Assembly: GCA_947074185.1 (NCBI GenBank)
Contig: CAMTOO010000003.1
Span: 1-64,000, forward strand
Direction: 5' to 3'
DNA length: 64,000 nucleotides
DNA from: an uncultured Negativicutes bacterium
GTDB taxonomy: Bacteria > Bacillota > Negativicutes > Acidaminococcales > Acidaminococcaceae
Positions within the stretch are counted from its first letter, which is position 1. Every line of letters begins with the position of its first letter. A program made the position numbers and the translations under genes. Below, piece by piece: positions 46,962 through 62,356 of this stretch. Under the pieces are notes generated by a model, which worked only from the letters and a program-made list of their open reading frames with translations, was not told where the DNA came from and made no database searches.

Positions 46962-47124
46962 ATGAAGTATACGGGAGAAGACAATGTCTACCGAAGGAGC
47001 TAAACTCTCAGGTATCTAATTTAGATGGGACCGCATATGGACACAACTCTGGAGAGCCTCTTTATGAGCGCCGAAGGTGCAGGGGTATTTTATACTCTAA
47101 TCTCTCAGGCAAAAGGACAGAGCG
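46962..47124 (+). ncRNA. Tandem glycine riboswitch
   Basis: Two glycine aptamers in series. The first (about 46962-47020) has GGGAGAAGAC, ACCGAAGGAGCTAAA and CTCTCAGG. The second (about 47046-47123) has CTCTGGAGAG, GCCGAAGGTGCAGGGG and CTCTCAGGCAAAAGGACAGAG. These are conserved glycine-riboswitch cores, joined by the usual short linker. A spurious 98-codon frame crosses the region and is ignored. The RNA is transcribed from 46927 and leads into livK-2, so the gene is under glycine control. Confidence 0.95.
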
Positions 47125-47199
47125 AAATCAATTAATTTACATGTATCTATATGTTTTTTTATATTTGTATGTCAATTTTTTGTTACGTTATTATCTATT

Positions 47200-60893: not shown

Positions 60894-61184
60894 AAAAAAA
60901 CCTGTCCTTGAAATATATACAAGGACAGGATTATAAACAAATAAACCTGCGGTACCACCTTGATTCACGAATATTCGTGCTCTTTAGCAGAGTGCCAACA
61001 CACCCCTCACCCTTAACGCTGGTGTTACGTTATGCAGTACTCTCACAAAGTGATTTCAACATACCCTCAACGGTCCATTTACTAAACAGCATCTCTGTTT
61101 GGTTCCCAGCATCCCAAACTCTCTGTAAGCGCTTTTTTTAGCTTGATCTCCGTCTCAACGGTTTTGTGGTCAATATTTAATTCT
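60894..61184 (-). ncRNA. T-box leader of the trp operon (Trp specifier)
   Basis: The minus-strand RNA contains the T-box sequence GGTGGTACCGCAGG (60946-60959) followed by a terminator hairpin (60901-60910 with 60920-60929) and seven T residues. The stem I region (about 61060-61140) has GA-rich segments and a specifier loop, where TGG (61075-61077) precedes ACC, matching the Trp codon. Uncharged tRNA-Trp should promote antitermination and trp expression. This accounts for the 340-bp gap before trpD. Confidence 0.93.
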
Positions 61185-62006: not shown

Positions 62007-62034
62007 AGTTTCACCCCTAAAAATTGATAACTTA

Positions 62035-62063
62035 ATTATATCATATATTATATTTTCTGTATC
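62035..62063 (-). promoter_or_regulatory. Promoter of the SH3 protein gene
   Basis: The minus strand has TATAAT (62035-62040), a 17-base spacer, and GATACA (62058-62063). The -10 is perfect and the -35 is partial. Confidence 0.6.
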
Positions 62064-62079
62064 GATATAATTTATATAT

Positions 62080-62120
62080 GAAAAAAGCGCTATTCTCATC
62101 AGCTGAAAATAGCGCTTTCA
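62080..62120 (-). terminator. Terminator of the tiny-peptide unit
   Basis: An 11-bp stem (AAAGCGCTATT with AATAGCGCTTT) and 13-base loop are followed on the minus strand by six T residues. It overlaps the stop codon of the 7-codon frame. Confidence 0.88.
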
Positions 62121-62141
62121 ATGTTTGTCTTCATTTAACAT
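62118..62141 (-). CDS. 7-codon reading frame with strong ribosome-binding site
   Basis: MLNEDKH, preceded by AAAGGAGA at good spacing, directly before the terminator. Too short for a familiar protein. It may be translated, or it may mark ribosome traffic next to the terminator. No homologue is recognised. Confidence 0.4.
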   Translation of the reverse strand: MLNEDKH

Positions 62142-62179
62142 TGGTAATCTCCTTTGATTATTAATATTAATTTAACTTC

Positions 62180-62239
62180 TTAGTGAACCATGTAAAATTT
62201 TAAAGAACACATTGCTTTTACGAATTTTTGAATAGTCAT
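62180..62239 (-). CDS. 19-residue peptide gene
   Basis: MTIQKFVKAMCSLKFYMVH is encoded on the minus strand with TAGGAGGAAACAATC before its ATG, a near-ideal ribosome-binding site. The peptide is basic and has one Cys. A promoter (62291-62319) and a terminator (62080-62120) bound a unit of about 200 bases that holds only this frame and the 7-codon frame. A small hairpin (AAGATT/AATCTT) sits in the 5' leader. I recognise no family. It could be a signalling peptide, a leader peptide, a membrane-active micropeptide, or a regulatory RNA with an incidental frame. The remaining gap DNA between the SH3 gene and dinB shows no other gene. Confidence 0.6.
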   Translation of the reverse strand: MTIQKFVKAMCSLKFYMVH

Positions 62240-62290
62240 GATTGTTTCCTCCTATACATAAATTTAAGATTTTCTAATCTTTATGTGCCT

Positions 62291-62319
62291 AGTATAACAC
62301 AGTGGTTTTATTTTGTCCA
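62291..62319 (-). promoter_or_regulatory. Promoter of the tiny-peptide unit
   Basis: The minus strand has TGGACA (62314-62319), exactly 17 bases, then TATACT (62291-62296). The start site would lie about 45 bases before the 19-residue frame. Confidence 0.75.
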
Positions 62320-62356
62320 GTAGGGCTTTCATTTGTCCCGCTTGTTGTTTTTGAAA

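Follow-up and report, generated by a model that had tools for sequence, protein, structure and literature searches.

The window examined, a stretch of 64,000 nucleotides, carries on its minus strand a mini-operon of about 260 bases (62339 to 62079), with dinB (Pfam IMS) upstream and a gene for a secreted SH3_3 protein downstream. The unit begins with an operator (62303..62339, GGGACAAATGAAAGCCCTACTGGACAAAATAAAACCA) made up of two dyads, GGGAC-N7-(A)GCCC at 62339-62323 and, 20 bp further on, TGGAC-N7-ACCA at 62319-62303, the second of which overlaps the -35. It was recognised from the positions invariant in 27 aligned sites and from a match to model R1 (E=1.3e-5, whole genome). A sigma-70-type promoter, TGGACA-N17-TATACT, lies at 62291..62319; its hexamers TGGACA (62319-62314) and TATACT (62296-62291) are 17 nt apart and the -10 is extended (TGtTATACT). 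Behind a ribosome-binding site AGGAGG (62248..62253), seen in the sequence, a frame of 19 codons plus stop starts at an ATG at 62239 (62180..62239) and encodes the micropeptide MTIQKFVKAMCSLKFYMVH, for which the evidence is a leave-one-out profile and purifying selection across the family. A second site, AAGGAG (62149..62154), likewise read from the sequence, precedes a mini-frame of seven codons plus stop (62118..62141, ATG at 62141) encoding MLNEDKH, with equivalents in most related units. Its stop codon overlaps the first base of the stem of an intrinsic terminator, AAAGCGCTATTTTCA-GCTGA-TGAGAATAGCGCTTT-TTT (62079..62118), consisting of a 15-bp stem with one G.U pair, a 5-nt loop and a T run. 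The hairpin was found by direct stem search and as a self-complementary match, and was absent from the list returned by a generic terminator scan.

The initial annotation had described the promoter, both ribosome-binding sites and the 19- and 7-codon frames at this place on the minus strand, between dinB and an exported SH3 gene, and all of this was borne out. The unit was correctly positioned but was started too far downstream, since the operator begins at 62339; the terminator stem, called perfect, has the stem and T run but is not strictly perfect owing to its G.U pair. A hairpin reported in the leader proved weak and was not conserved in relatives. Two other RNA elements were recorded in the window: a T-box leader barely above the gathering score (60918-61167, minus strand), upstream of trp genes, and a glycine riboswitch (47039-47130, plus strand) annotated as one aptamer.

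A search of 61 relatives at the DNA level returned genomes of the same family, Acidaminococcaceae (Negativicutes), in which the same promoter was followed by a frame of 18-19 codons. A pattern derived from three promoters matched eight genomes, every one of which encodes such a peptide (8/8). A profile of the peptide matched 16 of the 59 family genomes with E values from 1e-10 to 1e-5 (next best 0.03) and recovered units that the promoter pattern had missed; three further genomes carry a divergent peptide beneath the same operator. The peptides of genus g13 are more divergent (MLERIVAFLSEIEILPLE), again under the same operator. In all, the 18-19-aa micropeptide family, with the consensus MTFxKFxxALxxxxFYxxH, occurs in 19/59 family genomes and 11/18 genera, with one peptide copy per unit or a tandem pair (a 19-mer then an 18-mer, or two 18-mers). 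Most of the genomes are metagenome-assembled, and the window's genus is represented by one genome.

When the profile was built without the window peptide, that peptide was still found in the six-frame translation of the window (E=1e-8, next best 0.04). In 18/19 peptide-bearing genomes the unit stands behind almost the same operator-promoter, [GGGAC-N7-GTCC]-N4-TGGACA-N17-TATAnT, whose -10 is extended, and it nearly always closes with a hairpin; the exception is G002, one of the 16 positive with the profile. The element TGnTATAnT was also seen at the same spacing in seven units found through the peptide only. A lack of conservation of frames or signals in relatives had been set beforehand as a refuting observation, and both are conserved; with the leave-one-out match and the 18 conserved operator-promoters, the order of signals is not a product of chance. 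The single cysteine is no hallmark of the family, since most relatives lack Cys and have at position 11 C, Y, I or another residue, and the basic charge is not general.

An exact scan for the operator-promoter over 84,980 species gave 19 stretches, 18 of them with such a peptide. The peptide-bearing records were named Phascolarctobacterium, Acidaminococcaceae, Selenomonadales and similar, with one Selenomonas ruminantium. Two records named Acholeplasmataceae (JAAYVM010000143.1 and JAAYIB010000047.1) also carry the unit and match Acidaminococcaceae genomes; they appear to be mislabelled in the public record. The remaining stretch, from Clostridium, was set aside as chance: it has no micropeptide, and a cyclophilin-like gene comes next. 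No credible relative of the peptide outside the family turned up among 380 Negativicutes genomes. Three weak class-level matches (L099-L101) lacked the operator and were rejected, two lying within other frames and one being an AT-rich short frame. Annotation length cut-offs usually exclude peptides of fewer than 20 residues. The initial annotation had recognised no matching family, and a literature search likewise found no description of this micropeptide family. Frames of 30 bases or more are admitted to global small-ORF catalogues (PMC11364881), so single members may be listed in them.

Substitutions were counted in 12 near pairs. Synonymous sites had changed far more often than non-synonymous sites (68/118 vs 39/511; Fisher 2e-31); in six frames of genus g17, pS was 0.74 and pN 0.03, and pN/pS is about 0.04-0.45. 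The coding signal is decisive: the frames are selected at the amino-acid level and are probably translated. That weighs against reading the transcript as a small regulatory RNA in which the frames are incidental or secondary. The unit is indeed short, free-standing and terminated, and there are precedents for RNAs of dual function that contain tiny frames, such as RybA of E. coli, within which MntS lies (PMC4361602). What is conserved, however, is the peptide sequence and not the leader or its hairpin: a common RNA structure was sought across relatives in the leader, which is 27-75 nt long, and none was found, nor did the unit give an Rfam match at gathering level. A small RNA as the main product, one of the initial suggestions, is therefore very improbable.

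The peptide has an aromatic end and no signal sequence, full membrane span or fixed charge (range -3 to +3). Its helical hydrophobic moment exceeds that of column permutations, a modest signal (p=0.035). Short, partly amphipathic and aromatic peptides, in tandem as in phenol-soluble modulin operons, could be membrane-active toxins, antimicrobials or type I toxins. Against this, the charge varies, the peptide is too short to span a membrane, and no convincing antisense promoter covers the frame, the one plus-strand match (62024-62051) being within chance numbers. The locus is moreover chromosomal, single-copy and vertical in pattern, and no mobile or phage copy was detected: viral contigs contained no exact operator match and phages gave short weak matches only. 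A toxin is thus an unlikely identity for the product.

The closing mini-frames contain 5-12 codons and usually end at the foot of the terminator. Their sequence varies between units, the equivalents of MLNEDKH including MKTKYKI, MKIGYKK, MDSNWIK, MKQDFKN and MKTDFKK as well as shorter and longer ones. The 7-codon frame is nevertheless a recurring feature, since a strict test found mini-frames in 10/19 units against a shuffle mean of 0.28 and a maximum of 3 in 500 shuffles. Stops close to the terminator are usual in bacteria in which transcription outruns translation and the two are uncoupled (PMC7858274), and the mini-frame therefore looks like a true last frame of the message, which in the window unit would perhaps give a 7-aa peptide.

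The genes flanking the peptide units are unlinked, with at least three settings and no constant neighbour: a lon-engB-abrB side (g10, g16, g17), yitT-rsmA (g5, g7, g9, g14, with yitT also in g3) and the dinB/trp region (g1, g18, with a trp region also near the g13 units). No genome has a regulator gene beside the peptide unit. These two observations point to a unit that works in trans or on itself. Another possibility is that the frames act in cis only, as an attenuator or leader peptide through which ribosome movement sets read-through into downstream genes. The mini-frame stop at the terminator foot in most units would suit such a role, as would the trp operon lying further downstream in the window, in G017 and in g13 relatives. 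However, the downstream genes differ (rsmA, which is convergent, glycerol kinase, the trp region, a B12-riboswitch-like region), the stop position is the one usual under uncoupling, and a codon-dependent attenuator does not fit with selection on amino acids alongside nearly unconstrained synonymous sites. We regard a purely cis role as improbable. A free-standing transcription unit with a conserved micropeptide, as first proposed, is the description that the comparison supports: as far as sequence can establish it, the operator-promoter would drive an mRNA of ~200 nt with the peptide frame or frames, usually the mini-frame, and an intrinsic terminator.

Scanning the 16 positive genomes with the pattern located a second operator site, in the leader of an ABC importer operon. 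This operon encodes a substrate-binding protein and a double permease, whose closest families are phnS2 and PhnU2 with scores under the curated cut-offs, together with an ATPase, and is nearly universal in the family (57/59 genomes). Its usual neighbours are an FkbM-type methyltransferase gene, a divergent MntR/DtxR-like gene and a CbiK-like gene. With a 37-bp operator model over the 59 genomes, strong matches occurred almost only at the peptide units and the importer. Because this model had included importer sites, the test was repeated with a matrix made from peptide promoters only, each genome being left out in turn. The background was about 361,000 positions from the window and six loci, with real sites set aside, and its best score was 4.4. 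The importer leader site exceeded the best background in 17/19 peptide-bearing genomes. In the window genome (G000) it scored 13.0 vs 4.4; the importer operator of this genome is among the weaker ones, TGGTC replacing GGGAC. The site was recognisable in G004 (score 3.3), and G020 failed the test.

Among genomes without the peptide, the importer operator was found in 9/25 tested, mostly in genus g2; since g2 and a few others carry it without a detectable peptide, the importer does not need the peptide. Within g13, peptide and full importer site occur together in G012, G036 and G078, and the other genomes have neither, except for a decayed importer site in G073. A trans regulator whose weakening or loss went along with that of its sites would best explain this distribution. 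As the same operator precedes both, micropeptide and importer probably share that regulator, and the link between them is to be read as one of apparent co-regulation only.

Several side observations were made at the importer and with the operator model. The importer leader is ~200 nt long (G000:C48, L151:3373-3600; ~30 relatives) and contains, besides the operator, the conserved blocks GTGGTGGAATGTCT..GTGACA and ..TGTAAGCAGGA; in G000 it gave no Rfam match, and a cis element not yet described may lie in it. The CbiK-like chelatase has an apparent signal peptide (L258:4561-5509, G000:C48) and lies in the importer/MntR-like neighbourhood in several relatives, a hint of metal or tetrapyrrole handling. 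Operator-like sites were seen once each upstream of a glycerophosphodiesterase gene (G027, L150 C17:35877-35911), an iron alcohol dehydrogenase gene (G017, L144 C6) and an HdrB-like gene (G069, L188 C39). These three genes are possible extra regulon members and were excluded from the regulon count, while low-scoring single matches within genes (L196-L199) were discarded.

Two candidate regulators were considered. An MntR/DtxR-like gene adjoins the importer in most genomes. Tested by occurrence, it was also present where the operator has been lost, and its helix FSKPSVSRAM is the same in G012, with the operator, and G024, without it; its occurrence thus gave no support for this gene as the regulator. 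To our knowledge, GGGAC-N7-GTCC is not a known MntR-type site. A regulator of the Rgg/ComR type, the first guess from the operator, was rejected: the Rgg C-terminal domain (TIGR01716) was found in 0/59 family genomes, with a positive control in Lactococcus lactis, by a search that could miss a diverged ComR-like TPR protein.

The latter result bears on the main rival reading, in which the peptide is a pheromone, exported or processed, or else binds the shared regulator inside the cell, with feedback to its own promoter and to the importer in the manner of ComS/XIP acting through ComR in streptococci. The layout invites it: a tiny frame without signal peptide stands straight behind an inverted-repeat operator that has a second target, as with comS and comX (PMC5131891), and tandem copies and fast divergence from genus to genus would be in keeping with a specific signal. 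Beyond the missing Rgg domain, however, the half-sites are spaced by N7 and not by the N6 of the ComR-box, and no regulator gene adjoins the unit. Importer operators also exist where the peptide is absent, and the importer looks like those for phosphonates or polyamines, not like oligopeptide ones. We consider a signal or ligand unlikely on balance, while giving it more weight than a toxin, a cis-acting frame or a small RNA.

The reading that we favour, tentatively, is that of an intracellular amphipathic micropeptide, made by a regulated mini-operon, that adjusts the importer. A dimeric regulator acting in trans would control the peptide unit and the importer. Because dyad 2 covers the -35 of a near-consensus promoter, a ligand-released dimeric repressor is the simplest mode, and repression lifted by ligand would be the likeliest. 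One and the same condition would then lead to production of both micropeptide and importer; the peptide would remain in the cell and, with the regulon switched on, adjust the importer or the membrane around it. Its role on the importer may be peripheral to the membrane or protein-binding, in analogy to what is proposed for MntS and SgrT and their transporters in E. coli (PMC4361602).

The product is probably a regulatory micropeptide that has not been described before. Taken jointly, we think it rather likely that these 18-19-aa micropeptides, single or tandem and accompanied by a 5-12-codon mini-peptide, under a two-dyad GGGAC-N7-GTCC operator common to an ABC importer, form a new class, and that this class either tunes a transporter or represents the first peptide signal in Negativicutes. 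The family becomes visible only when operator, frame and terminator are joined across genomes. It brings with it a candidate regulon, micropeptide and ABC importer, in bacteria common in gut and rumen, and offers a way to approach both a candidate transcription factor and the means by which uptake might be tuned by a product of 19 aa.

Known systems resemble the unit in part. Unlike a leader peptide or attenuator, it has no constant downstream gene and occupies at least three genomic settings. Like the staphylococcal phenol-soluble modulin operons, it places very short amphipathic peptides, in some cases several, in one small unit, but the sequence is different, the amphipathicity weaker, the charge inconsistent and the copy usually single. 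The ComR-box is a 20-bp element with a GACA/TGTC repeat and N6 between GAC and GTC (PMC5131891). As in ComRS, a short frame without signal peptide follows a GAC/GTC-type inverted repeat that recurs at another target; here, however, the element is GAC-N7-GTC in two tandem dyads with a near-consensus -35, in a family without an Rgg-type regulator and with none adjoining the gene. MntS, with 42 aa (PMC4361602), is unrelated in sequence and longer than the 18-19-aa peptides, which often stand in tandem and are followed by a closing mini-frame; here, moreover, the MntR-like gene is found even in genomes that have lost the operator. What the unit has in common with MntS and SgrT is a transcription unit of its own for a small protein, a regulator that would be common with a transporter, and a DtxR/MntR-like gene near the importer.
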